Positions 28,319 to 46,801 of a DNA stretch of 46,801 bases are shown here, one piece after another (positions within the stretch are counted from its first letter, which is position 1; each line of letters starts with the position of its first letter). Origin of the DNA: an uncultured Erysipelotrichaceae bacterium (GTDB lineage: Bacteria; Bacillota_I; Bacilli_A; RF39; UBA660). The notes under the pieces were generated by a model that saw nothing but the letters and a program-made list of their open reading frames with translations, did no database searches and had not been told where the DNA came from. Location: positions 1-46,801 of the forward strand of contig CADAMI010000007.1 of NCBI GenBank assembly GCA_902788975.1, read 5' to 3'. Both the position numbers and the translations under genes were made by a program.

Positions 28319-29251
28319 ATGGAAAGAATAAAAGGTTACTTGAAAAAATTATTTAAAGTATTAAAAAAACCAGAGATGACTATCTTACCATCTAATATTG
28401 CTTTTAACATTATTTTAGCCATTATTCCATTACTTACAATCGTAGTTTTAATTGCTTCATATTTCGATATTTCTATCGATTTAGTTAGCAATCTTGTTAG
28501 TAGTGTTATGCCGAAACAAGTTAGTTCTATAATTATTGATGTAATTTCTGGTAAAGGTTTTGATAGAAGTGTAGGTTTCTTCAATATTGTGGCATTTGCT
28601 GTTGCCTCAAATGGTACATATGCTATTATTAATACTTCTAATACCCTTTATCAAATAAAAGAAAGAGATTATTTAAAGGATCGTATAAGTTCAATAATAT
28701 TGTTATTTATTGTCATTATTCTTTTTGTGTTCTTACTGGTAGTACCTATTTTTGGTGATAATATTATTAGACTTATGTCAAGTGCAAAATTATTATCAAA
28801 TTATGCTGATGATGCGATGATTATTTTTAACATCATAAAATGGCCAATTACTTTGCTTATAATATACTTAAATATTAAGCTTATATATACAATTGCTCCC
28901 AGTAAAAATATTCGTAGTGAAGAAACTACTTATGGGGCATTATTTACAACTATTTGCTGGATTTTTGCCACATTAATATTTAAATTTTACCTAAACCATT
29001 TCGCAAGATATGATATTATTTATGGTAATTTGGCATCGATTATCATTATGATGGTTTGGATGTACTTCTTATCATATATATTCGTCCTTGGAATGGCAAT
29101 TAACGCTTCAAGGCGAGAAGAAAAAGAAATATATGAAGAAACGATGAGGATTGAAAGAGAGCAAATAGAAAAAACTTTAAAAAAAAGAGAAAAAAAGAAC
29201 AAAAAAGAAATCAAAAATAATAAAAATATTCAAGAAACTAAAATTGATTAG
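28319..29251 (+). CDS. YihY/BrkB family membrane protein
   Basis: A 310-residue protein with six membrane helices (about 25-265). The conserved opening PSNIAFNIILAIIPLLTIVVL, the middle FAVASNGTYAIINTSN and the end IIMMVWMYFLSYIFVLGMAIN fit the YihY/BrkB family. The family was once called ribonuclease BN, now considered an unrelated membrane protein of unknown transport role. The C-terminal 45 residues are a Lys/Glu-rich cytoplasmic tail. AAGGAG precedes the start, 17 nt after the GGDEF-like gene. Confidence 0.87.
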   Translation: MERIKGYLKKLFKVLKKPEMTILPSNIAFNIILAIIPLLTIVVLIASYFDISIDLVSNLVSSVMPKQVSSIIIDVISGKGFDRSVGFFNIVAFAVASNGTYAIINTSNTLYQIKERDYLKDRISSIILLFIVIILFVFLLVVPIFGDNIIRLMSSAKLLSNYADDAMIIFNIIKWPITLLIIYLNIKLIYTIAPSKNIRSEETTYGALFTTICWIFATLIFKFYLNHFARYDIIYGNLASIIIMMVWMYFLSYIFVLGMAINASRREEKEIYEETMRIEREQIEKTLKKREKKNKKEIKNNKNIQETKID

Positions 29252-29260
29252 TTTCTTTTT
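29232..29260 (+). terminator. Terminator after the YihY gene
   Basis: AAGAAACTAA pairs with TTAGTTTCTT, followed by TTT; it overlaps the stop codon. Confidence 0.8.
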
Positions 29261-29261
29261 A

Positions 29262-29290
29262 TTGACATGTTCATTTTTAGGTGATATAAT
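29262..29290 (+). promoter_or_regulatory. Consensus promoter of the transporter-cytidylyltransferase operon
   Basis: TTGACA at 29262-29267, exactly 17 nt, TATAAT at 29285-29290: a full consensus match. Transcription would start near 29297. Confidence 0.9.
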
Positions 29291-29303
29291 TAAGAAAATG
29301 AAC
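29269..29303. promoter_or_regulatory. Inverted repeat spanning the -10 box, candidate operator
   Basis: GTTCATTTT (29269-29277) and AAAATGAAC (29295-29303) are perfect inverted repeats separated by 17 bp that contain the -10 box. A dimeric repressor bound here would block RNA polymerase. The HTH domain on the last gene of the operon is a candidate ligand (inference). Confidence 0.6.
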
Positions 29304-29315
29304 GGAGTGATAAAA

Positions 29316-30293
29316 ATGAAAAAAATACTTTCAATCGGATTATTATTATTAATAGTCTTTACAATTACTGGATGTGGCAAAAAAAACGATGTGGTAATCT
29401 ATTCTAGTCAGGAGGAAGAGAGAGATCAGGCGTTAAAAGAACAATTAAAAGAAAAATTTCCTGATTTAAATGTTGTTGTACAACATATTGGAACTGGTAA
29501 TAGTGCCGCCAAAATAAAAAACGAAGGCAGCAAAGTCGAAGCAGATATTGTTATTGATTTGGAAACTGCCCATGTGGTTGATATACAAGACAACTTTGCT
29601 GATATATCATACTTCGATGATTCTATCTATTTAGATGGCATTAATACTTCAGATAAATACCTAACTTGGGTTAAATATACATTAAATTTAATTATTGACA
29701 ATAAATATTTTAAAGAACATAATTTGAGTATTCCTAAAACTTATGAAGATTTATTAAAACCAGAATACAAAAATTTAATTGCTATGCCGGACCCAAAAAC
29801 ATCAGGAACTGGATATGGATTTTTTCTAAATTGCGTAAATATTATGGGAGAGAATAAAGCCATTGAATACTTTAAAAAATTAAAAGAAAATATGCGTGAA
29901 TTTACAACTTCTGGATCTGGGCCAACTAATTTACTTAAGCAAGGAGAAATAGCTATTGCTATGGGAATGACTGCTCAAGGAGTTAAAGCCATTAATGATG
30001 GATATGATTATAGTATTATAGAACTTGATACTGGTTCACCATATAATACAACATCTTGTGGTATTATTAAAGGCCACGAAGAAAAAGAACATGTTAAAGA
30101 AGTGTTTGAATTTGTTGTAAATGAATTTGGTAGATATGATAAAGAAAATTTTATGCCAGATATCATTTTAAAAAATCAACATAATAAAGTAGCTAATTAT
30201 CCTGAAAATCTTAAAGATGCCGATATGACAGGAATTGATAGTATTGCTACCAAAGAAAAATTAACAAAGAGATGGGAAGAAGTAAATGGATAA
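29316..30293 (+). CDS. ABC transporter substrate-binding lipoprotein (2-aminoethylphosphonate/iron type)
   Basis: A 325-residue lipoprotein with lipobox TITGC and a type 2 periplasmic-binding fold: DVVIYSSQEEERDQ at the start, KIKNEGSKVEADIVIDLE, PDPKTSGTGYGF and GEIAIAMGMTAQGVKA. The family includes FbpA-like Fe(III) receptors and PhnS-type 2-aminoethylphosphonate receptors. The genes after it favour a phosphonate-like ligand. The ATG at 29316 follows CGGAGTG; upstream in-frame codons would run through the promoter. It overlaps the ATPase gene by 8 nt. Confidence 0.85.
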   Translation: MKKILSIGLLLLIVFTITGCGKKNDVVIYSSQEEERDQALKEQLKEKFPDLNVVVQHIGTGNSAAKIKNEGSKVEADIVIDLETAHVVDIQDNFADISYFDDSIYLDGINTSDKYLTWVKYTLNLIIDNKYFKEHNLSIPKTYEDLLKPEYKNLIAMPDPKTSGTGYGFFLNCVNIMGENKAIEYFKKLKENMREFTTSGSGPTNLLKQGEIAIAMGMTAQGVKAINDGYDYSIIELDTGSPYNTTSCGIIKGHEEKEHVKEVFEFVVNEFGRYDKENFMPDIILKNQHNKVANYPENLKDADMTGIDSIATKEKLTKRWEEVNG

Positions 30294-31047
30294 TCTAGAA
30301 ATAAAGAATCTTACCAAAATTTATAATAAAAAAACAGTCTTAAATAATATTAGTTTTAGTGTTAAAAATGGTGAATTTTTATCAATATTAGGTCCAAGTG
30401 GTTGTGGTAAAACTACGTTGCTAAAAATTTTGATTGGTATTGAGAAACCAACAACTGGAGAAATTATAAAAGAAGGTAAGAATATTACTAATCTAGATTC
30501 TGCTAAAAGGGAAATGGGCATGGTCTTTCAAAACTATGCACTTTTTCCTAATATGACAGTTTTAGATAATGTAATGTATGCCTTAAATTTAAAATTAAAA
30601 AACAGAAATAAAGCTTATGAAGAGGCTTTAAAAATGTTAAAAATAGTTAATATGGATGAACACTTAAATAAATATCCACATGAACTTTCTGGAGGCCAGC
30701 AACAGCGAGTAGCAATTGCCAGAACGTTATCACTAAATCCAGATATTATCTTATTTGATGAACCTATGTCGGCACTTGATGCCGATAATCGATTAGGGTT
30801 AAGAAAAGAATTAAAAGAAATTCAAAAGAAATTTAAAACTACCATGATTTATATTACTCACGATCAAGAAGAGGCCTTCTCATTATCTGATAGGGTAATG
30901 GTCATGCACAATGGCAATATTGAACAAATTGATACTCCAAATAGAATATATAATTATCCTGCCAATGATTATGTTAGAAATTTTGTTACAAATCATTTAA
31001 TTGAAAAAGTATCTTCAATTGAAAGATGTACAGGAATTGATTTATAA
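30286..31047 (+). CDS. ABC transporter ATP-binding protein of the import operon
   Basis: A 253-residue importer ATPase with Walker A GPSGCGKTT, Q-loop VFQNYALFP, signature LSGGQQQRVAIART, Walker B IILFDEPMSALD and the switch His in YITHDQEEA. It belongs to the PotA/FbpC/PhnT class; the C-terminal regulatory domain of longer members is missing. The start overlaps the binding-protein gene and the stop overlaps the permease start (TAATG). Confidence 0.93.
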   Translation: MDNLEIKNLTKIYNKKTVLNNISFSVKNGEFLSILGPSGCGKTTLLKILIGIEKPTTGEIIKEGKNITNLDSAKREMGMVFQNYALFPNMTVLDNVMYALNLKLKNRNKAYEEALKMLKIVNMDEHLNKYPHELSGGQQQRVAIARTLSLNPDIILFDEPMSALDADNRLGLRKELKEIQKKFKTTMIYITHDQEEAFSLSDRVMVMHNGNIEQIDTPNRIYNYPANDYVRNFVTNHLIEKVSSIERCTGIDL

Positions 31048-32633
31048 TGCCAAAAAAATCAAAATTTAGTATTTTAATTTTACTATTTCTTTTAATTTCA
31101 ATTTTTTATCCATTGCTTGTTATGTTACTTAGAGTTGAGTGGTCGACATTTCCCGATTTACTATCATCAACTGCTTTTAAGAATGCCTTTAATAACTCAT
31201 TAATTGTAACAAGTATTGCTACGATTATTTCAATAACAATTGCCTATATGCTTGCCTATACATTAAATAGGACGAATATTAAACATCGCGCAGTTTTAAA
31301 AGTATTACTTACTGTGCCAATGCTAATTCCATCCATATCGCATGGATTAGGTTTAATTAATCTATTTGGCGCCAATGGTATTATTTCTTCAATTTTTGGC
31401 TTTAATATCATCGGTGAATCAGGCATAGTAATGGGATCAATTCTATATTCATTTCCAGTTGCTTTCTTGATGTTAGATGATGGCTTTAATTATATTGACA
31501 ATACAATGTATGATTCTGCCAAAATCCTAGGAATGAGCCAATGGGAAACATTTAAAAATGTAACCATGTGCTATATGAAAAAGCCACTATTATCAGCAAT
31601 CTTTGCCGTGTTTACATTGATATTTACTGATTATGGTGTTCCACTTGCCGTTGGTGGAAAATTTATTACCTTACCAGTATTCCTATATAAAGAAGTAATA
31701 GGTTTACTCGATTTCTCTCGCGGAACGATGATTGGTTTATTTTTGTTAATTCCAGCATTTATATCATTCATTTTTGATAATTTTACCAAAGATTATTCTT
31801 TTGGAGAATTTGAAGGAAAGGAATATAAAATTGAAGATAATATAACACGTGATAGCATTTTAACATTATTTGTATATTTGGTTATAATTTTTATCATGAT
31901 AATTATTGGATCATTTATTCTTTATGCCTTCGTTGATAACTATGTTTTAAATCGAGTATTTTCGTTTAAACATTTTGAATATGTTCTTAATAATGAATTA
32001 GGAAAATATATCTTCAATTCATTACTTATTGCAATTATTGTTTCCATAGCTGGAACAATTATTGCATATTTTACTGCATATTATACAGCCAGAATCAAAG
32101 AAAAAATGTCCAAAATTGCTCATATATTAACTATTGTTTCATTAGCAATTCCTGGTATTGTATTAGGATTATCTTATACAATTGGATTCCGTGACAGTTT
32201 TATTTATAACACATACATAATACTTATAATAGTTAATATAGTTCACTTTATCGCCAGTCCATATTTGATGGCCTATAATGCCTTACAAAAAGTAAATCCA
32301 AATTATGAAGTAGTTGCTAAAACGTGTAATATTAGTACCTTTAAAATAATAATTGATGTTATAATACCTTGCACAAAAAAAACTATTAGAGAAATGATTG
32401 CTTATTTCTTTGTTAACTCGATGATAACGATATCAGCAGTTGCCTTTCTATTTAATACAAGAACAATGCCATTATCACTTTTAATAAATACATATGAAGA
32501 AAACTTAATGCTTGGTGAAGCGGCAATCATCTCACTTATCATTTTAGTATTCAATATTATTGTCAAAGGAACAGTATATTTAATAAATCGTAAAGAACAT
32601 AGAAGGAGTGTTGAACGTGAAAATAACATATAA
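31047..32633 (+). CDS. ABC transporter permease with two fused MetI domains
   Basis: A 528-residue protein with about twelve membrane helices in two homologous halves (about 1-245 and 275-520). Each half has an EAA-type loop for ATPase contact: YDSAKILGMSQWETFKNV and YEVVAKTCNISTFKIIIDV. Fused permeases of this size occur in FbpB, ThiP and PhnU-type transporters (iron, thiamine, 2-aminoethylphosphonate). It overlaps the upstream gene by 1 nt and the downstream HTH-cytidylyltransferase gene by 17 nt, so four genes are coupled. Confidence 0.92.
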   Translation: MPKKSKFSILILLFLLISIFYPLLVMLLRVEWSTFPDLLSSTAFKNAFNNSLIVTSIATIISITIAYMLAYTLNRTNIKHRAVLKVLLTVPMLIPSISHGLGLINLFGANGIISSIFGFNIIGESGIVMGSILYSFPVAFLMLDDGFNYIDNTMYDSAKILGMSQWETFKNVTMCYMKKPLLSAIFAVFTLIFTDYGVPLAVGGKFITLPVFLYKEVIGLLDFSRGTMIGLFLLIPAFISFIFDNFTKDYSFGEFEGKEYKIEDNITRDSILTLFVYLVIIFIMIIIGSFILYAFVDNYVLNRVFSFKHFEYVLNNELGKYIFNSLLIAIIVSIAGTIIAYFTAYYTARIKEKMSKIAHILTIVSLAIPGIVLGLSYTIGFRDSFIYNTYIILIIVNIVHFIASPYLMAYNALQKVNPNYEVVAKTCNISTFKIIIDVIIPCTKKTIREMIAYFFVNSMITISAVAFLFNTRTMPLSLLINTYEENLMLGEAAIISLIILVFNIIVKGTVYLINRKEHRRSVERENNI

Positions 32634-33510
32634 TGAATTTTTAGTTTTAACGACAATTGAACGTGAAAAAGATAAAATATCTCAACGAAGACTATCAGAA
32701 TTAACAAAGTTATCTTTAGGGACGATTAATAAAATAGTATCAGATTTTCTAAAAAATAATTTAATTACATCTGAAAATGTAATTACCGAAAATGGTTTGA
32801 AAGAGTTAGAGCCATATCGTGTAAAAAGAGCTATCTTTTTAGCAGCTGGCTTTGGTTCAAGATTAGTACCTATTACTTTAAATACTCCCAAGCCATTAGT
32901 TTTAGTAAATGGTAAAAAAATAATCGAAACATTGCTTGATGCATGCATTAAAGCTGAAATTGAAGAGATAATTATTGTTACTGGATATCTATCAGATCAA
33001 TTTGAAATATTACTTAAAAAATACCCCAATATTAAATTTATTGTTAATAAGAAATATAATGAAGCTAATAATATTTCGTCCGCTTATTTAGTTAGAGATA
33101 AATTTGCTAATGCTTATGTTTTAGAATCAGATTTATACTTATATAACTCTAATTTAATTAGAAAATATGAGTATCAAAGCAACTTTCTAGGTAAGTATGT
33201 AAGTGTTACCGATGATTGGTGCTTAGAAACTAAGAATGGCATTATTACTAAAGAAAAAGTAGGAGGATACAATTGTTATCAAATGTATGGAATATCATAC
33301 TATGATGAAGAAGATGCCAATAAGATGGAAAAAGATATTGATGAAGTTTATAATTCACCAGGAGGTAAAGAAAAGTATTGGGAACAAGTTATCTTAGATG
33401 TAAAGAAAAAAAATTATCAAATTGCTGTACGCGAATGCTATGAAGGGGATATCATTGAAATAGATACCTTTAATGAACTAAAAGCAATTGATAAAACATA
33501 TGATGTATAA
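32617..33510 (+). CDS. HTH-fused nucleotidyltransferase of the LicC/PntC family
   Basis: A 297-residue fusion. Residues 1-65 form a winged helix-turn-helix (ISQRRLSELTKLSLGTINKI). Residues 70-297 form a small sugar-nucleotidyltransferase-like domain with AIFLAAGFGSRL (72-83) and TPKPLVLVNGK (90-100), the CTP-binding loop and Lys. Closest families are LicC (CTP:phosphocholine cytidylyltransferase) and PntC (2-aminoethylphosphonate cytidylyltransferase). No choline kinase or choline permease is present; the genes ahead form an importer of PhnSTU type. The GTG at 32617 is used because AGAAGGAG lies 8 nt upstream; GTG 32608 overlaps that site. The HTH may make it the regulator of its own operon. 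Confidence 0.82.
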   Translation: MKITYNEFLVLTTIEREKDKISQRRLSELTKLSLGTINKIVSDFLKNNLITSENVITENGLKELEPYRVKRAIFLAAGFGSRLVPITLNTPKPLVLVNGKKIIETLLDACIKAEIEEIIIVTGYLSDQFEILLKKYPNIKFIVNKKYNEANNISSAYLVRDKFANAYVLESDLYLYNSNLIRKYEYQSNFLGKYVSVTDDWCLETKNGIITKEKVGGYNCYQMYGISYYDEEDANKMEKDIDEVYNSPGGKEKYWEQVILDVKKKNYQIAVRECYEGDIIEIDTFNELKAIDKTYDV

Positions 33511-33513
33511 AAT

Positions 33514-33549
33514 AAAAGATAAATATAGTAAAGTATATTTATCTTTTTC
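33514..33549 (+). terminator. Terminator after the HTH-cytidylyltransferase gene
   Basis: A 14-bp stem AAAAGATAAATATA/TATATTTATCTTTT over a 6-nt loop, then T-rich. Confidence 0.8.
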
Positions 33550-33666
33550 TCTTTCTATAGTATAATAAATATAACATATAGTTAAATGATATACTTTACA
33601 TCGAAGTAAAATATATCTATAATTATATATTAAATGATGTTATAATTATTTAAGGAGAATGATAAT

Positions 33667-35133
33667 ATGCAACAAAAATCGATGTTTAAAAATATTATTT
33701 ATAAAGCAATTTTAAGTTTTGTAAATATAATGGTACCAGTTATAATTGGATCGTATATCGTTCATTTATTAGATGTTGATTTATATGGTGCTTATAATAA
33801 AGTATATTCCGAGTTTCAAGTATTTTTAACATTTGCATCTTTTGGTATTTATACTTTTGGTATTAGAGAAGTCAGTAAAATTCGCGATGATAATAAAAAA
33901 ATATCAATATTATTTACTAATTTATTTGTAATTTCGATCATCACTAATTTAATTACTACCGTTATCTATATTATTTATAGTATCTATACTTCGACTGGTA
34001 TAACTACCACAATATATTTATTTATGGTTATTCAATTAATTGCCAATATTTTTTACATTGAATTTGTTAATGAGGCACTTGAAAATTATAAATTTATAAC
34101 TATAAAATCAGTTATTATTAAATTAATGTATATGGTATCGCTATATTTATTTGTAAAAAAACCAGGAGATATTATTGTATATACCATTATTATCAGTATG
34201 ACAGCCGTATTAAACAATCTAGCAAGCTTTGCATATGCAAAAAAAAGAATTAGATTTAATTTTAAATATATTAATTTTAAGAAATATTTGGGTCCTATGT
34301 TTACCATTTTAATTATAAGTAATATTGATTTGCTATATTCACAATTAGATCGTATTATGCTAGGAAAATTTGTCAGTGATGTATCGGTTACAATGTATTA
34401 TATCCCTTATTATTTGATCTCTATGTTAATATCAATACCATATGCCATTATTAATGTAGCAATTCCACGTTTAGCATATGTATTAGAAAATAAAGGTAAA
34501 AAAGAATATTTATTAAATCTTTCACGTTCAATATCCTCACTTTATTTTATAATTATTCCAATGTGCTTTGGCGTATTAGTCCTTGCTGATGAAGCAATCT
34601 TACTCTATGCCGGTGAAAAATATATGGCTATGGTTCCAACGTTAATCGTAGCTTGCATTGCAAGATTAATCATAAGTACCGAATCAATTATGACTAATCT
34701 TGTATCATATCCAAACAATAAGGAAAAACAAATTCTTAAATTTTCATTATGCTTTGGGACAAGTAATTTAATCATGAATAGTATATTACTTTTAATCCAT
34801 AAATTTAATCCAACCACATCGCTAATTACAACGTGTATTGCTGAATTTGGATTTGCTTTGAGTCAGTATATTTATGCAAGAAAAAAATTAGATTTAGAAT
34901 TCCATATATTTACTAAACAAAATACCACTTATTTAATATTAGGATTATGCTTTATTCCAATTGCTTCTTTGATTCGTTTGCTAAATTTAAATTTTTATAT
35001 TAATTTTGCTTTAATTGTAATTGCCTGTGTGATTTTCTATCTTGGCTTTTTATATCTAAAAAAAGATGATAATCTATTATTGGCAAGCAGCAAAGTATTA
35101 AACAAATTTAAAGTTATTTTAAGGAGGAAGTAA
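33667..35133 (+). CDS. Polysaccharide flippase (Wzx/MATE-like, MVF superfamily)
   Basis: A 488-residue protein with about fourteen membrane helices of the oligosaccharide flippase family. It would turn lipid-linked repeat units to the outer face of the membrane. Family features are LLDVDLYGAYNKVYSEFQVF in the first loop, GIYTFGIREVSK and SQLDRIMLGKFVSD. AAGGAG precedes the start. It opens the glycan-assembly gene run and ends 1 nt before the sulfotransferase gene. Confidence 0.88.
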   Translation: MQQKSMFKNIIYKAILSFVNIMVPVIIGSYIVHLLDVDLYGAYNKVYSEFQVFLTFASFGIYTFGIREVSKIRDDNKKISILFTNLFVISIITNLITTVIYIIYSIYTSTGITTTIYLFMVIQLIANIFYIEFVNEALENYKFITIKSVIIKLMYMVSLYLFVKKPGDIIVYTIIISMTAVLNNLASFAYAKKRIRFNFKYINFKKYLGPMFTILIISNIDLLYSQLDRIMLGKFVSDVSVTMYYIPYYLISMLISIPYAIINVAIPRLAYVLENKGKKEYLLNLSRSISSLYFIIIPMCFGVLVLADEAILLYAGEKYMAMVPTLIVACIARLIISTESIMTNLVSYPNNKEKQILKFSLCFGTSNLIMNSILLLIHKFNPTTSLITTCIAEFGFALSQYIYARKKLDLEFHIFTKQNTTYLILGLCFIPIASLIRLLNLNFYINFALIVIACVIFYLGFLYLKKDDNLLLASSKVLNKFKVILRRK

Positions 35134-35134
35134 C

Positions 35135-36190
35135 ATGAATAGAATAATTGTTCCAACCGGATACATGGGATCAGGCTCATCTGCTATTACTGACTTAATA
35201 TCTGAATTTAAAGACTGTCAAAATAGTCATAAAAGTTATGAATATGTTTTATTGCATACCCCCAATGGTTTATTTGATTTAGAAGATAAACTTTTAATAG
35301 GGAATAATGCTATCCGCAGTGATGAAGCAATTCGTTCCTTTGAACAACAAATGAAAAAGTTTTATAATAAAAAGTTTTGGTGGGTGGGTAACTATGAAAA
35401 AATAATTGGTCCCCAATTTATGGAAATAACTAATCAATTTATTAATAATATTCAAGAATTTAAATTTGATGGATATTGGTATATGCATGAAGAATTAAAT
35501 TTTAAAATGTTTGTAAAATTACTATTACAAAAGCCATTTAAGATATTATCAAGAAATAAAATAAAATTTAAACGTGTCTTGCGATATAACGATGGTATGC
35601 GTATATCATATATTAAAAAAGATGAATTCTATAAACAAGCCCACAACTATATATATGACATCATCGATTATGTTGCTGATGGCAAAGAAAATATTATTTT
35701 AGATCAATTTTTATTACCATTTAATTTGCATCGTGTAGATAATTACTTTGATGATAAGTTAAAGGTTATTGTCGTCGAGCGCGATCCACGTGATGTATTT
35801 ATTTTAAATAAATATATTTGGCCGCAAAAAAACATTGTGGTTCCAATGCCTAAAGAGGCAAATGAATTCTGTAAATTTTATAAGCATATGCGTGAAAGTG
35901 AAATTATGACACATTCAGATAAAGTATTAAGAATAAAATTTGAAGATTTAATTTATAACTATGAAAATGAATTAAAAAGGATAATGCAATTCCTAAATTT
36001 TAAAGAAAAAGATCATATTAATAAAAAAACTCGTTTCAATCCAGATATTTCAATTAAGAATACCCAGTTATTTAGAAAAAAAATATATGAGAAAGAAATT
36101 AAAATACTTGAAAATGAATTAAAAGAGTATTTATATGATTTTAAAGAAACATTGGACAATGATGTTTTAAATACAGTGGAGTTTGAATAA
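35135..36190 (+). CDS. Sulfotransferase-like protein
   Basis: A 351-residue protein with the two PAPS-binding marks of the sulfotransferase superfamily: a P-loop-like 5'-phosphosulfate loop near the N-terminus (PTGYMGSGSSAITDL, about 7-21) and the 3'-phosphate loop VVERDPRDVFI (about 213-223). The rest is charged and alpha-helical, with no signal. It probably modifies a glycan or lipid in the cytoplasm before export. The GSGSS loop is unusual compared with the common RSGT/KSGT pattern. AAGGAGG precedes the start. No PAPS synthesis genes are in the window. Confidence 0.7.
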   Translation: MNRIIVPTGYMGSGSSAITDLISEFKDCQNSHKSYEYVLLHTPNGLFDLEDKLLIGNNAIRSDEAIRSFEQQMKKFYNKKFWWVGNYEKIIGPQFMEITNQFINNIQEFKFDGYWYMHEELNFKMFVKLLLQKPFKILSRNKIKFKRVLRYNDGMRISYIKKDEFYKQAHNYIYDIIDYVADGKENIILDQFLLPFNLHRVDNYFDDKLKVIVVERDPRDVFILNKYIWPQKNIVVPMPKEANEFCKFYKHMRESEIMTHSDKVLRIKFEDLIYNYENELKRIMQFLNFKEKDHINKKTRFNPDISIKNTQLFRKKIYEKEIKILENELKEYLYDFKETLDNDVLNTVEFE

Positions 36191-36308
36191 ATAATATATT
36201 TTCATTTATGAAAAATTGCGAAAAAAGTCATTTTATAAGGCAGTTATAAAATTAAGTAACAGTTAAAGTTTATTATCCAAGAAACAATATATGTAGAAGG
36301 AGTACCAT

Positions 36309-37148
36309 ATGGAAAAGGATTTAAGATCACTACAATTAAAAATTTTGGAAATAGTTAAATATTTTGATAAATTGTGTACTGAAAACAATATTGAGTATTA
36401 CATATTATATGGTTCAGCTATTGGGGCAGTCCGCCATGGCGGTTTTATCCCATGGGATGATGATTTCGATGTAGGTATGACATATGAAAATTATTTAAAA
36501 TTACTTGATGTTTGTGAAAAAAAGCTTGACAAGAAAAAATATTTTTTGCAGACTCCTGATAACGAAGAAAACTATTATTTATCATTTGCTAAATTAAGAG
36601 ATATTACCACGACATTAATTGAAGAAGGTAATAAAGATACCGATATAACTTATGGCGTTTATATTGATATCTTTCCATTTGTTGGAGTACCTAAAGGTAA
36701 AATTAAAAGGGCACTTTTAAAAATAAATCATGCTTTTGTATTATCAGCCAATATTAATATTATAAATAATAAAATATTAGCTACTCTTTTTCGAATAATA
36801 TTGAAATTTGTAGGTAAAAAAAGAATTTTAAAAATATGCTACAAAAATTGTGTTAAATATAGTTGTAATGATTATGAAGATTGGTGTTGTATTTTTGATG
36901 GCGATGGGTTTGAGAAAAATTTTACAACCAAGGCAATTATGGGCAAACCCCAAAAAATGAAATTTGAAGATACCATGCTACCTGTTCCATATGATACCGA
37001 TAAATATTTGAGATCATTTTATGGCGATTATATGAAAATTCCATCTAAAGAAGAAATTGAAAAGAAAAAACATACTCGCTATGTTTTAGATTTAAATCAC
37101 AGTTATGAAGAGTATAAAAAAATTAATAGAAGGAAAGATAAAAAATGA
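36309..37148 (+). CDS. licD: LicD family phosphotransferase
   Basis: A 279-residue member of the LicD/Fukutin nucleotidyltransferase-fold family, which moves phosphocholine or similar groups from a CDP/CMP donor onto glycans. The start is typical: LQLKILEIVKYFDKLCTEN, then YILYGSAIGAVRHGGFIPWD followed by DDFDVGM, where the Asp cluster binds metal. YGVYIDIFPFVGVP follows and a Cys-rich stretch (ICYKNCVKYSC) occurs in the middle. With the LicC/PntC-like enzyme it would decorate the polysaccharide. GAAGGAG precedes the ATG. It overlaps the following GT2 gene by 4 nt. Confidence 0.9.
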   Translation: MEKDLRSLQLKILEIVKYFDKLCTENNIEYYILYGSAIGAVRHGGFIPWDDDFDVGMTYENYLKLLDVCEKKLDKKKYFLQTPDNEENYYLSFAKLRDITTTLIEEGNKDTDITYGVYIDIFPFVGVPKGKIKRALLKINHAFVLSANINIINNKILATLFRIILKFVGKKRILKICYKNCVKYSCNDYEDWCCIFDGDGFEKNFTTKAIMGKPQKMKFEDTMLPVPYDTDKYLRSFYGDYMKIPSKEEIEKKKHTRYVLDLNHSYEEYKKINRRKDKK

Positions 37149-39046: not shown

Positions 39047-41602
39047 ATGCTTGAAAAAATAAAAAAATATATAGATCAATATTGGTTGTTATTTATCGTA
39101 GCTACTCAACCAATTCTAGATATAATTGCTTTCTTTACCTTTAATGAAAAAATTACAATAATTAGTTTTTTAATTAGATCTATTTATTTAATATTTATTG
39201 TTGGATATTCATTCTATAAAACTTCTAATAAGAAAAAATATATTTTATGTTTACTACCCATAGCAATATTTAGTATTTTTCATCTATTAAATTCGTATCG
39301 GACATCTGGATTTAATTTATTTGATGATTTGAGATATTTAATATTAGTTATGCAAATGCCAATTATTACTATATCACTATGTTTTTATGTAAAAGAAAAT
39401 GAATGGCAAATTAAAAAGATCGGTCATGCCTTTGCAATAGCAATTACTATTATTGCCACAAGCGTGCTATTGTCGGTTATTACCGGAACTGGTAAGACAA
39501 CATATACTACTTATGGCTTAAATGGTTGGTTTACCAGTCCAAATACCCAAAGTATGATTTTAAGTGTATTATGCCCTTTTTGTTTATATTATTTTTCTAA
39601 ACAAAATGATATTAAATATTTAATTGCCAGTCTAGCAATATTTATCCTACTATTTAATAACGGTACACGTGCTTGTTATTATTCATTGGTGGCATTATTA
39701 GCCGTTAATTTATTTAATTATATTGTAAGTAAAAATAAAAAAAATATATATAAAATTAGTATTACAACTTGTTTTTTATTGCTATCATTGTTTTTATATC
39801 ACATGTCTTTCGCATCACTTCGACAAACAGATATTACAATTAATAATAATGGTTATAAAGAAGAAAAAATTGATTATAGCAACGAAGTAAATAAAAATAA
39901 GGCAATTGATTTTATGCGCCAAAGTTATTTATTTGATGAACTAATAAATAATTTTGGTGAAGACAGGGTATATTACGAAATGAAAGATAAAATAAATGCT
40001 TATAATATAAGTGATAATCGTTTAGTAAAAAGAATATATGGTAAATTTATCTTTGAAGATAGTGATTTCTTAACAAAAATAGTTGGCTTTAATCATTATG
40101 AAATAAAACAATATAGTATGGATCTTGAAAATGATCTAACCGCCTTATTTTACTATTATGGATATCTTGGTTTTGCTTTGTATATAATATTTATTCTATA
40201 TTTTATGTATCTAGGCATTCGACAATTAATAATAAAACCAAGTATGATATTTGATAGTAAATTTGTTATTCTTGGTTTTACTATCGTTCTAGCTTTATAC
40301 GGTTCGGAGTACTCAGGAGCTTTACTCAGAAAACCAAATGCTAATATTTATTTATCATTAATTCTCGTAATGTTTTATGTGTATACTTATAGTCAATTAA
40401 ACAACAAAGAAGTTAAAAAGAATAAACTATCATTTCTAATGCTTCATATAGGCTATGGCGGTATTGAAACCGCTATTGTAAATACTGCCAACTCATTATG
40501 TGATAAATACACGATTGAATTGATAAGCTTTTATAAACTTAAAAAAAATCAAGTAAGTAATTTAGATAAAAGAGTAACAGTTAAGTATTTATATAATGGC
40601 GAACCAAATCGAGATATTTTTAAATCTTACCTTAAAAAAATAAATATTCCATTGATATTTAAAGAAGGAATGAAGGCCATAAGTATTTTGGTAAAAAAAA
40701 GGTATTTAATTATTAGAGCAATTATTGATAACGATGCTTCATTCATTATCTCAACTAGATATGAATTTAGTATTCCTTTAAGCAAATATGGTAGCAATCG
40801 TTGCATTAAAATTGCCGAAGAACATTGCTATCATAATAACAATCGAAAATATATTAATATTATAAAGAAAAAATATAACAATATTGATTACTTATTTGCC
40901 TTAACAAAAACGTTAGAAGAAGATTATCGTAAGTTTTTAAAAAACAATTCACATACGAAGATTGTTCTCATGCCTAATATGCTATATATAATGCCTGATA
41001 AAAAAAGCGATTTAAACAAAAACAACATTATTACCCTTAGTAGGTTAGATGTCAAAAAGAAAAATGATGATATAATTCGTGCATTTTCAAAAATTAAAGA
41101 AAAAGATTGGCATTTGTATATTTTAGGAGATGGTAATGAATTTGATAATTTAAATCAATTGATTAAAGATTTACAATTATCTGATAGAGTATTTCTAACT
41201 GGTTATAAAACAAAAGAAGAAATACCAAATTATATGTTAAATGCAAGTATTTTTCTAATGGCCTCCCTTACTGAAGGCCTTCCAATGGTTTTGCTTGAAG
41301 CAATGAGTTATGGTATTCCCTGCATTGCTTATAATATTCCTAGTGGCGTAAATGACATTATTGATAGTAATAAAAATGGTTATGTTGTTAATAATAGAAA
41401 TGAAGAAGAATATGTAAAATGTATTGAAAAATTAATAAATAATAAAGAATTGCGTAAGAATTTTAGCACTAATGCAATTAATAAAGCCAAAGAATTTTCA
41501 AAAGAAGAAATTACTAAAAAATGGGATAGTGTATTAAGCGAGGGAAGTATATGTTTAGAGTTAGAAAGCAAAAAAAGAAAAGAAATATTATCAGATATCT
41601 AA
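39047..41602 (+). CDS. Fusion of O-antigen polymerase/ligase-like domain and GT4 glycosyltransferase
   Basis: An 851-residue protein. Residues 1-450 carry about ten or more membrane helices with a large outer loop (about 250-360), as in Wzy/O-antigen ligase proteins, including GLNGWFTSPNTQSMIL and NNGTRACYYSLVAL. Residues about 458-840 form a GT-B fold enzyme of family GT4: SFLMLHIGYGGIETAIVNTA, then NIITLSRLDVKKKNDDIIRA, ILGDGNEFDNL and the donor-binding SLTEGLPMVLLEAMSYGIPC. One polypeptide thus seems to combine chain polymerisation outside with sugar transfer inside. No internal stop or start suggests two genes. Its 3' end overlaps the next gene by 52 nt. Confidence 0.85.
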   Translation: MLEKIKKYIDQYWLLFIVATQPILDIIAFFTFNEKITIISFLIRSIYLIFIVGYSFYKTSNKKKYILCLLPIAIFSIFHLLNSYRTSGFNLFDDLRYLILVMQMPIITISLCFYVKENEWQIKKIGHAFAIAITIIATSVLLSVITGTGKTTYTTYGLNGWFTSPNTQSMILSVLCPFCLYYFSKQNDIKYLIASLAIFILLFNNGTRACYYSLVALLAVNLFNYIVSKNKKNIYKISITTCFLLLSLFLYHMSFASLRQTDITINNNGYKEEKIDYSNEVNKNKAIDFMRQSYLFDELINNFGEDRVYYEMKDKINAYNISDNRLVKRIYGKFIFEDSDFLTKIVGFNHYEIKQYSMDLENDLTALFYYYGYLGFALYIIFILYFMYLGIRQLIIKPSMIFDSKFVILGFTIVLALYGSEYSGALLRKPNANIYLSLILVMFYVYTYSQLNNKEVKKNKLSFLMLHIGYGGIETAIVNTANSLCDKYTIELISFYKLKKNQVSNLDKRVTVKYLYNGEPNRDIFKSYLKKINIPLIFKEGMKAISILVKKRYLIIRAIIDNDASFIISTRYEFSIPLSKYGSNRCIKIAEEHCYHNNNRKYINIIKKKYNNIDYLFALTKTLEEDYRKFLKNNSHTKIVLMPNMLYIMPDKKSDLNKNNIITLSRLDVKKKNDDIIRAFSKIKEKDWHLYILGDGNEFDNLNQLIKDLQLSDRVFLTGYKTKEEIPNYMLNASIFLMASLTEGLPMVLLEAMSYGIPCIAYNIPSGVNDIIDSNKNGYVVNNRNEEEYVKCIEKLINNKELRKNFSTNAINKAKEFSKEEITKKWDSVLSEGSICLELESKKRKEILSDI

Positions 41603-45380: not shown

Positions 45381-46502
45381 ATGGAACAGGAAATATTAAA
45401 ATTATTAAAAAATAAAAAAAATACTTCTTTAACAAGTATTGAAATAAATGATTATCTTGGATTAAATGGGATAGATGAATATGCTAACTTAGAAAAGATA
45501 TTAGATAAATTATGTTTAGAAGGTAAAATATATTATAGTGAAAAGAAAAAAAGATATACTCCTATCGAAAATACTAGTTTTAAGACAGGTAAATTATTAG
45601 TTAATCCTAAAGGATATGGTTTTGTTATTCTAGATGAAAGTTTTCATGAAGATGACGTCTATATCAGTGGAAAAAATCTATTAGATGGTAGAAATAATGA
45701 TACAGTTGTTATTGAAATTATAAATAAGAATACTCGTGAAGGTAGAGTAATACGTATTCTTAAAAGAGATGACTCTGTTTTAGTAGGTCTTCTTTGTGAA
45801 GATAAAGGTAATTACTATGTTAAACCAGATAAACCCGAATATAAAGATATTCCTATTCCTAATGATATGCTAAAAGGAGCTATACCAGGACATAAAGTGT
45901 TAGTTAAACCAAATAATGTTGGCCATGAATATATTGGCGAAATCATTAAAATAATCGGTCATAAAAATGATGTTGGTGTTGATATTTTATCTTATGTATA
46001 TCAATATGAATTTGACCCAACATTCTCGGATGAAGTAATGAATGCAGTAGAAAAAATACCTAGTGAAGTTTTACCAGAAGAGTATGATGGTAGAGTAGAT
46101 TTACGTAATGAAGTAATATTTACCATCGATGGAGATGATACTAAAGATATTGATGATGCTATTAGTATTAAAAAAATTAGTAATGATGTATATGAATTAG
46201 GGGTACATATTGCCGATGTATCACACTATGTTAAGAATGAAGGAATTATTGATAAAGATGCTTATGAAAGAGGAACTAGTGTCTACTTGGTAGATAGAGT
46301 TATTCCAATGCTTCCCCATAAATTATCAAATGGTATTTGTTCTCTAAATCCAGAAGTTGATAGATTAGCCTTATCTTGTGTTATGAATATTAACAGCAAA
46401 GGCTATGTTATTAAATATAAAATATTTAAATCTGTAATTAGAAGTAGAAAACAAATGACTTATAATTGTGTCAAACTTATAATTGTGTCAATGATATCTT
46501 AG
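45381..46502 (+). CDS. rnr: Ribonuclease R, N-terminal part up to the frameshift
   Basis: The 3'-to-5' exoribonuclease RNase R, which degrades structured RNA and helps rRNA and tmRNA turnover. Residues 1-70 form the N-terminal helix-turn-helix, about 72-220 hold two cold-shock/OB domains (KLLVNPKGYGFVILDE), and the RNB catalytic domain starts with EVIFTIDGDDTKDIDDAISI, whose Asp residues bind Mg. The frame goes wrong after RKQMTYN at the 17-bp duplication (46458-46491), adds ten or so foreign residues and stops at 46502. The correct continuation is in the frame from 46490. GGAAAGG precedes the start. Confidence 0.93.
   Translation: MEQEILKLLKNKKNTSLTSIEINDYLGLNGIDEYANLEKILDKLCLEGKIYYSEKKKRYTPIENTSFKTGKLLVNPKGYGFVILDESFHEDDVYISGKNLLDGRNNDTVVIEIINKNTREGRVIRILKRDDSVLVGLLCEDKGNYYVKPDKPEYKDIPIPNDMLKGAIPGHKVLVKPNNVGHEYIGEIIKIIGHKNDVGVDILSYVYQYEFDPTFSDEVMNAVEKIPSEVLPEEYDGRVDLRNEVIFTIDGDDTKDIDDAISIKKISNDVYELGVHIADVSHYVKNEGIIDKDAYERGTSVYLVDRVIPMLPHKLSNGICSLNPEVDRLALSCVMNINSKGYVIKYKIFKSVIRSRKQMTYNCVKLIIVSMIS
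46458..46491 (+). repeat. Perfect 17-bp tandem duplication in rnr
   Basis: The unit ACTTATAATTGTGTCAA occurs at 46458-46474 and again at 46475-46491 with no mismatch. Seventeen is not a multiple of three, so it shifts the rnr frame. Confidence 0.97.
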
Positions 46503-46801
46503 AAAATAATAAAGTTCCTGACGGTTATGAACCATTCGTTAAAGACTTAAAATTAATGAATGAATTATCTAACATTCTAAGAAAGAAAATGATTAATCAT
46601 GGCTATTTAGAGTTTGATAGACCTGAAGCTAAGATACTCGTCGATGAAAAATGTCATCCAACAGAGATAAAATTAAGAGAACAAAGAACGGGTGAAAAAT
46701 TGATTGAAAACTTTATGATTGCTGCTAATGAAACGGTTGCTGGTTATATTGAAGATATGAAAGTACCTGGCATCTATCGTGTTCATGATAAACCTAATAA
46801 A
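46490..46801 (+). CDS. rnr: Ribonuclease R, continuation in the shifted frame (partial)
   Basis: The frame from 46490 stays open to the window end and gives NDILENNKVPDGYEPFVKDL, RKKMINHGYLEFDRPEAKI, TGEKLIENFMIAANETVA and VPGIYRVHDKPNK, all typical RNB-domain sequence. Removing one copy of the 17-bp duplication joins it seamlessly to the upstream part. The 3' end lies outside the window. Confidence 0.92.

Follow-up and report, generated by a model that had tools for sequence, protein, structure and literature searches.

The handling by bacteria of 2-aminoethylphosphonate (AEP), a rare compound with a carbon-phosphorus bond, has been described from two sides: work on its uptake has treated AEP as a nutrient, and work on surface tailoring has dealt with AEP made by the cell itself. 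A search of open-licence papers found the in-house phosphonyl tailoring (Pnt) pathway and catabolic AEP importers, but neither AEP import for surface tailoring nor a cytidylyltransferase (CYT) that acts as a regulator through a winged-helix DNA-binding domain (wHTH). The words “transporter” and “salvage” are absent from the text on the Pnt enzyme PntC by Rice et al. 2019 (PMC6697681). The operon described here would join both fields. It lies on contig CADAMI010000007.1 of assembly GCA_902788975.1, of which a stretch of 46,801 nt, called the window below, was analysed; the source genome, G000, measures 1.23 Mb and is about 71% complete. The four genes of the operon encode a substrate-binding lipoprotein (SBP), an ABC ATPase, a two-domain permease, and a CYT with an N-terminal wHTH (Table 1). 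An initial annotation had proposed that a phosphonate or phosphocholine-like group is imported, activated, and transferred to a surface glycan, and all the genes it named, including those for a flippase, a sulfotransferase, and LicD, are present on the + strand.

The operon likely serves the salvage of AEP through import, activation to CMP-AEP, probable transfer to the surface, and control by the wHTH-CYT. In the proposed mechanism, AEP would be captured by the SBP and brought into the cell by the ABC transporter, and the wHTH-CYT would couple it to CTP, giving CMP-AEP and pyrophosphate. A CMP-using transferase, for which LicD is a candidate, would then probably attach the activated AEP to a glycan or lipid of the surface. 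The wHTH of the CYT probably binds the inverted repeat TGTTCA-N25-TGAAC over the promoter; an AEP-consuming enzyme would then govern the supply of AEP, as BirA does with biotin, and the wHTH-CYT would probably repress its own supply operon. BirA and NadR are enzyme-regulator fusions, and BirA controls the supply of biotin.

The four-gene module recurs, far above chance, in about 28 genomes of many species. A first scan, of GTDB contigs, found 22 close relatives, the majority of which share all four genes, and a second scan, of a phylum sample, gave further loci. In four loci (L067, L068, L070, and L071) the permease and the CYT are one open reading frame (ORF) of about 850 aa. The same CYT clade is also found inside AEP-synthesis operons (L051, L092, L093, and L095), together with PhnW and Ppd; PepM belongs to the operon in the first three and lies about 12 kb off on the same contig in L095. 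PhnW, the enzyme that makes AEP, is present in every synthesis operon holding this clade. Of the 12 CYT genomes that lack the ABC importer, 8 have PepM, compared with 2 of the 28 importer-bearing ones (Fisher p 2e-4, an optimistic value because the species are related, the genomes are not independent, and several are incomplete); PepM was not found in G000, the genome of a gut bacterium apparently unable to make AEP, or in 26 of the 28 importer-CYT genomes. The link of the CYT to AEP synthesis (Ppm/PepM) holds for the clade, not for G000 itself. In the tree, CYTs from importer and from synthesis operons are intermingled within one clade (support 100/98), with no fewer than 4-5 changes of context. 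The window CYT lies outside a second clade (97/95), that of the CYTs whose neighbours are LicA and a BCCT choline transporter; Spn-LicC sits on a long branch, and its placement is uncertain. Import and activation of pre-made AEP are strongly supported, as predictions from sequence, by the presence of the CYT clade in synthesis operons, the complementarity of importer and PepM, and a shared operator. AEP was first isolated from rumen protozoa, as stated in a passage of PMC10590968 that cites Horiguchi and Kandatsu 1959, and rumen bacteria and feed have also been reported to contain it (PMC4659874). The rumen and herbivore guts are the source of several of the relatives.

The operator, TGTTCA-N25-TGAACG, overlies the SBP promoter, its first half-site abutting the -35 box and its second lying just past the -10 box. 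It is the only exact match in the window, where 0.02 would be expected by chance; the whole of G000 holds two sites of this pattern, the second of which is intragenic. The operator is conserved at most importer operons of the relatives with a spacing of 24-26 nt (TGTTCA-N24..26-TGAAC). Six genomes (G352, G408, G462, G401, G493, and G163) have it in front of their PhnW-Ppd-PepM operons, and in L093 it precedes the CYT-PhnW-PepM-Ppd operon; as a control, among the upstream regions of 406 other genes, 3 reach 11/12. Because the operator is common to importer and PepM operons, import and synthesis of AEP would seem to form a single regulon, with the CYT enzyme itself as its probable switch. No Rfam riboswitch was found in the window.

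The presence of the operator follows the state of the wHTH. Where the wHTH is intact, the operator is found in 30/31 when the PepM operons of three orphan-CYT genomes are counted (27/31 otherwise); where it is lost or degenerate, in 0/7 (L045, L051, L071, L073, L092, L095, and L096). In phylogenetically independent pairs, wHTH state and operator change in the same direction. L043 and L053 carry the recognition helix SLSTINK, not SLGTINK, and their site reads TGTTCT-N26-AGAACA. A regulatory role of the wHTH-CYT is probable on the ground of this co-loss. A separate transcription factor might instead read a genuine operator: the half-site spacing of 31 nt is wide for a single wHTH dimer, and the operator is missing at L050 although the wHTH there is intact. 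This alternative is unlikely, given that operator and intact wHTH are lost together and that no other regulator gene was seen recurring beside the loci. As a tentative extension, one and the same wHTH-CYT could regulate both AEP import and AEP biosynthesis operons and, fused to the ABC permease in some lineages, could form a membrane-bound protein that imports, activates, and perhaps senses AEP. Separately, L069 (5351-8029) and L072 (4920-7607) each have a single ORF of about 890 aa in which a wHTH-LicC is combined with a LicA-like kinase and another CYT. Both ORFs are preceded by operator-like repeats (12/12 and 11/12, respectively), and choline-type operons may therefore also use the wHTH-operator pair.

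The catalytic part of the CYT is a LicC/PntC-type domain (PF12804/PF00483 fold). Its best PDB matches, LicC 1jyk (2e-32) followed by PntC 6pd1 (8e-11), bear out the earlier naming of a LicC/PntC-like cytidylyltransferase, and the structural model (pLDDT 94.7) fits best LicC 1jyl (TM 0.92, target length) and then PntC 6pd2. Equivalents of LicC D107, E216, and D218 are retained, as are those of Trp136 and Trp191. At the positions equivalent to LicC 105 and 192 the window CYT has Glu, and LicC has D105. In Tde-PntC, Glu104 and Glu196 have been placed at the AEP amine (Rice et al., PMC6697681). Glu105, matching Tde-PntC E104, is found in all importer-, APC-, and synthesis-linked CYTs tested.

Several points weigh against the salvage of AEP. 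Two importer genomes have PepM as well, and absences in G000 are weak taken alone because the genome is only about 71% complete. The CYT is nearer to LicC than to Tde-PntC, both by sequence and by fold. Of 10 choline-linked CYTs, 3 likewise have Glu105; for that reason this residue is supporting evidence only and was rejected as sole proof of AEP. Glu at 192 was rejected as a marker, as it varies within the CYT clade and Glu/Asp at this position is non-discriminating. As to the operator, its threshold and spacing and the wHTH rule were all set on loci later counted, the L050 locus is an exception, and independent losses of the wHTH are few (four well-supported pairs, sign test p 0.125).

The substrate could be phosphoethanolamine or another aminophosphonate, such as N-methyl- or hydroxy-AEP, rather than AEP itself. 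Glu105 would fit any primary amine, and some clade relatives adjoin LicA-like kinases and amidohydrolases. This is nonetheless quite unlikely, as PhnW is present in every synthesis operon with the CYT clade and in all six operator-bearing PepM operons. It is still less probable that the operon imports phosphocholine and supplies LicD with CDP-choline, as a kinase-free Lic pathway. The nearest solved structure of the CYT is that of LicC, and the nearby LicD matches the Mf1 cholinephosphotransferase model below its cut-off. The retained Trp136 and Trp191 would also suit choline, but they are neutral because the AEP-specific Ari-PntC keeps the aromatic box (Rice et al., PMC6697681). The LicA/BCCT-linked CYTs form a clade of their own, whereas the window CYT belongs to the clade found in AEP-synthesis operons, and its operator is shared with PepM operons. 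Phosphocholine is thus disfavoured by the choline-type enzymes falling in another clade, by Glu105, and by the choline kinase result: PF01633, a model that detects LicA relatives, was not found in G000 and passes its cut-off in 1 of 23 genomes, which agrees with the absence of licA given in the initial annotation. LicB/BCCT genes are not found in the operon; LicB was not searched genome-wide.

Some CYT-related observations stand apart from the question of the ligand. In L074, L076, and L098 an amidohydrolase gene adjoins a LicC-LicA fusion and a Glu105 CYT, and possibly frees an amine or alcohol for phosphorylation. G000 itself holds a second nucleotidyltransferase (L002 1489-3129, G000:C27) with a long C-terminal region without a Pfam call, in a small cluster with HAD-like and PHP-like ORFs. 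Genomes of family f15 (e.g., G355, G329, and G173) contain LicC-like homologues in which TGA occurs in frame several times, which would fit a code that reads TGA as Trp.

The PhnSTU-type nature of the transporter, as initially annotated, is upheld in a qualified form. The best NCBIfam models are PhnS2, PhnT2, and PhnU2 for SBP, ATPase, and permease, with a clear margin for the SBP and the permease, but all three scores lie below the curated equivalog cut-offs (150/393, 330/458, and 372/593 bits, respectively); the transporter is taken as PhnS2T2U2-like in function, not as an equivalog. That it serves phosphorus or nitrogen catabolism of AEP, with the CYT as a mere neighbour, is very improbable. 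The characterised AEP importers AepXVW, AepP, and AepSTU are indeed tied to catabolism (PMC8316502), but PhnX, the only catabolic route searched for (C-P lyase and others were not), is over its cut-off in just 1 of 34 genomes, and permease and CYT are fused in four loci. The SBP model (AF2, pLDDT 93) has 8x1a, AfuA, and P5PA as its nearest solved structures, which are top both in a PDB search with a profile of 24 binding proteins and in Foldseek; their ligands, glucose-6-phosphate, hexose phosphates, and pyridoxal phosphate, make them phosphate-ester binders. Transport of Fe(III) or thiamine can practically be dismissed: the SBP shares the fold of FbpA and of the thiamine-binding protein, but its closest solved relatives bind phosphate esters, FbpA-type iron proteins rank below them, the Tyr-Tyr dipeptide of the paired FbpA iron ligands occurs nowhere in its sequence, and PhnS2 scores 150 bits against 52 for the thiamine-type SfuA model.

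In L047, L048, and L049 an APC-family amino-acid permease adjoins the CYT in place of the ABC genes and is a candidate for a second class of AEP transporter. A TRAP transporter near the orphan CYTs of L061-L063, guessed from gene sizes, was rejected, as Pfam assigns these genes to radical SAM, UDG, beta-lactamase-like, and M17 families.

Table 1. Features of the AEP operon and its surroundings (window coordinates).
Feature	Position	Strand	Evidence
Terminator-like hairpin of the upstream BrkB/YihY gene (AAGAAACTAA...TTAGTTTCTT TTT)	about 29231-29260	+	Inverted repeat, sequence reading
Promoter TTGACA-17-TATAAT	29262-29290	+	Consensus match only, 12/12; TG precedes second hexamer
Operator TGTTCA-N25-TGAACG	29268-29304	no strand	Exact match; conserved in relatives
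SBP, PhnS2-like substrate-binding lipoprotein	29316-30293	+	TIGR03261 best, E 1e-43, below cut-off
PhnT2-like ABC ATPase	30286-31047	+	TIGR03265 best, E 2e-98, below cut-off
PhnU2-like two-domain permease	31047-32633	+	TIGR03262 best, E 5e-111, below cut-off; overlaps CYT start
wHTH-CYT, predicted AEP cytidylyltransferase and operon regulator	32617-33510 (ORF list: from 32608)	+	Pfam, PDB match, alignment, tree, model, operator co-occurrence
Terminator-like hairpin and T-rich tail, 3' end of four-gene operon	33514-33547	+	Folding
Wzx-type flippase, separate unit	33667-35133	+	PF01943/PF13440
Sulfotransferase-like protein, separate unit	35135-36190	+	PF00685, PF13469
LicD family protein, candidate AEP transferase	36309-37148	+	PF04991 E 6e-45; NCBIfam Mf1 cholinephosphotransferase E 5e-25, below cut-off

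The genes for SBP, ATPase, and permease overlap head to tail, and the CYT gene overlaps the 3' end of the permease gene; to judge from the sequence, the four genes (29316-33510) are a single transcription unit. For the SBP, the ORF list gives a TTG start at 29244, which was rejected because it sits 5' of the promoter. For the CYT, the GTG at 32617 is likelier than the listed start; it lies 8 bases past AGAAGGAG, the ribosome-binding site, and agrees with the starts of the relatives. The 158-nt stretch containing the downstream hairpin folds at z -3.4. Flippase, sulfotransferase, and LicD, together with the subsequent glycosyltransferases, form an envelope-glycan cluster behind its own promoter-like site. 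The initial annotation, which mentioned neither the flanking hairpins nor the inverted repeat nor the wHTH, had described one overlapping operon followed by flippase, sulfotransferase, and LicD genes; the one-operon view stands for the four overlapping genes, and the three genes that follow are a separate unit because hairpins close the four-gene operon on both sides. The route from import to LicD probably crosses a transcription boundary. Further along the window, an 851-aa ORF (39047-41602) joins an O-antigen-ligase-like membrane domain to a GT4 glycosyltransferase, and at 46440-46520 an RNase R-like gene looks frameshift-split (ORFs 45381-46502 and 46466 onward), perhaps through an assembly error.

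The neighbouring LicD is a plausible candidate for the transfer of AEP onto a surface glycan. Its presence in 15 of 23 importer/CYT genomes led to its rejection as the universal transferase; other members have LtaS-like sulfatase-family or Glyphos_transf proteins in its place. The salvage idea of the initial annotation has accordingly fared well for AEP import and activation, while transfer to a glycan by LicD, encoded in another unit, is unproven. A YidC-like (60KD_IMP) domain and a CDP-glycerol-type Glyphos_transf domain share one ORF near the CYT in L045 (9567-11642) and L048 (4441-6537), both called by Pfam, and in L036 (7914-9971) and L039 (898-2967), assigned by BLAST homology. This fusion was rejected as a universal transferase, since it was not found in G000 and many others. 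YidC-like and sulfatase-family domains are fused in the importer locus L046 (5643-8363) and the synthesis locus L092 (3123-5861), beside a stand-alone Glyphos_transf.

If the salvage of AEP is confirmed, bacteria without C-P bond synthesis could coat themselves with phosphonate scavenged from ciliates or neighbours. An importer and a wHTH-CYT without PepM would serve as a genomic marker for phosphonate-coated gut bacteria overlooked by PepM-based surveys. The system further provides a regulator open to direct testing, a candidate for a second type of transporter (APC), and a fusion of permease and enzyme.

Compared with BirA and NadR, the wHTH-CYT likewise combines a nucleotidyl-activating enzyme with an HTH and has a conserved operator on its supply operon; it differs in enzyme fold and ligand, and its DNA binding is predicted. 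The importers of the AepXVW type lie in catabolic neighbourhoods (PMC8316502), whereas the present one, compared through the PhnS2/T2/U2 models and not with AepX directly, is linked to activation. The Lic-1 system (LicA-LicB-LicC-LicD) has import, CTP activation, and a LicD candidate in common with this operon, which differs in its CYT clade, in having no LicB/BCCT genes and no choline kinase that the search could find, and in a ligand that needs no phosphorylation. The closest likeness is to the Pnt pathway, where the proposed source of CMP-AEP for surface tailoring is a LicC-like enzyme with Glu at the position of the AEP amine (Rice et al. 2019, PMC6697681). The Pnt clusters described use in-house phosphonate (Ppm), whereas in the window operon AEP is apparently imported and the CYT carries a wHTH; some relatives have CYT and permease as one fused protein. 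The operon would best be called a variant of the Pnt pathway.

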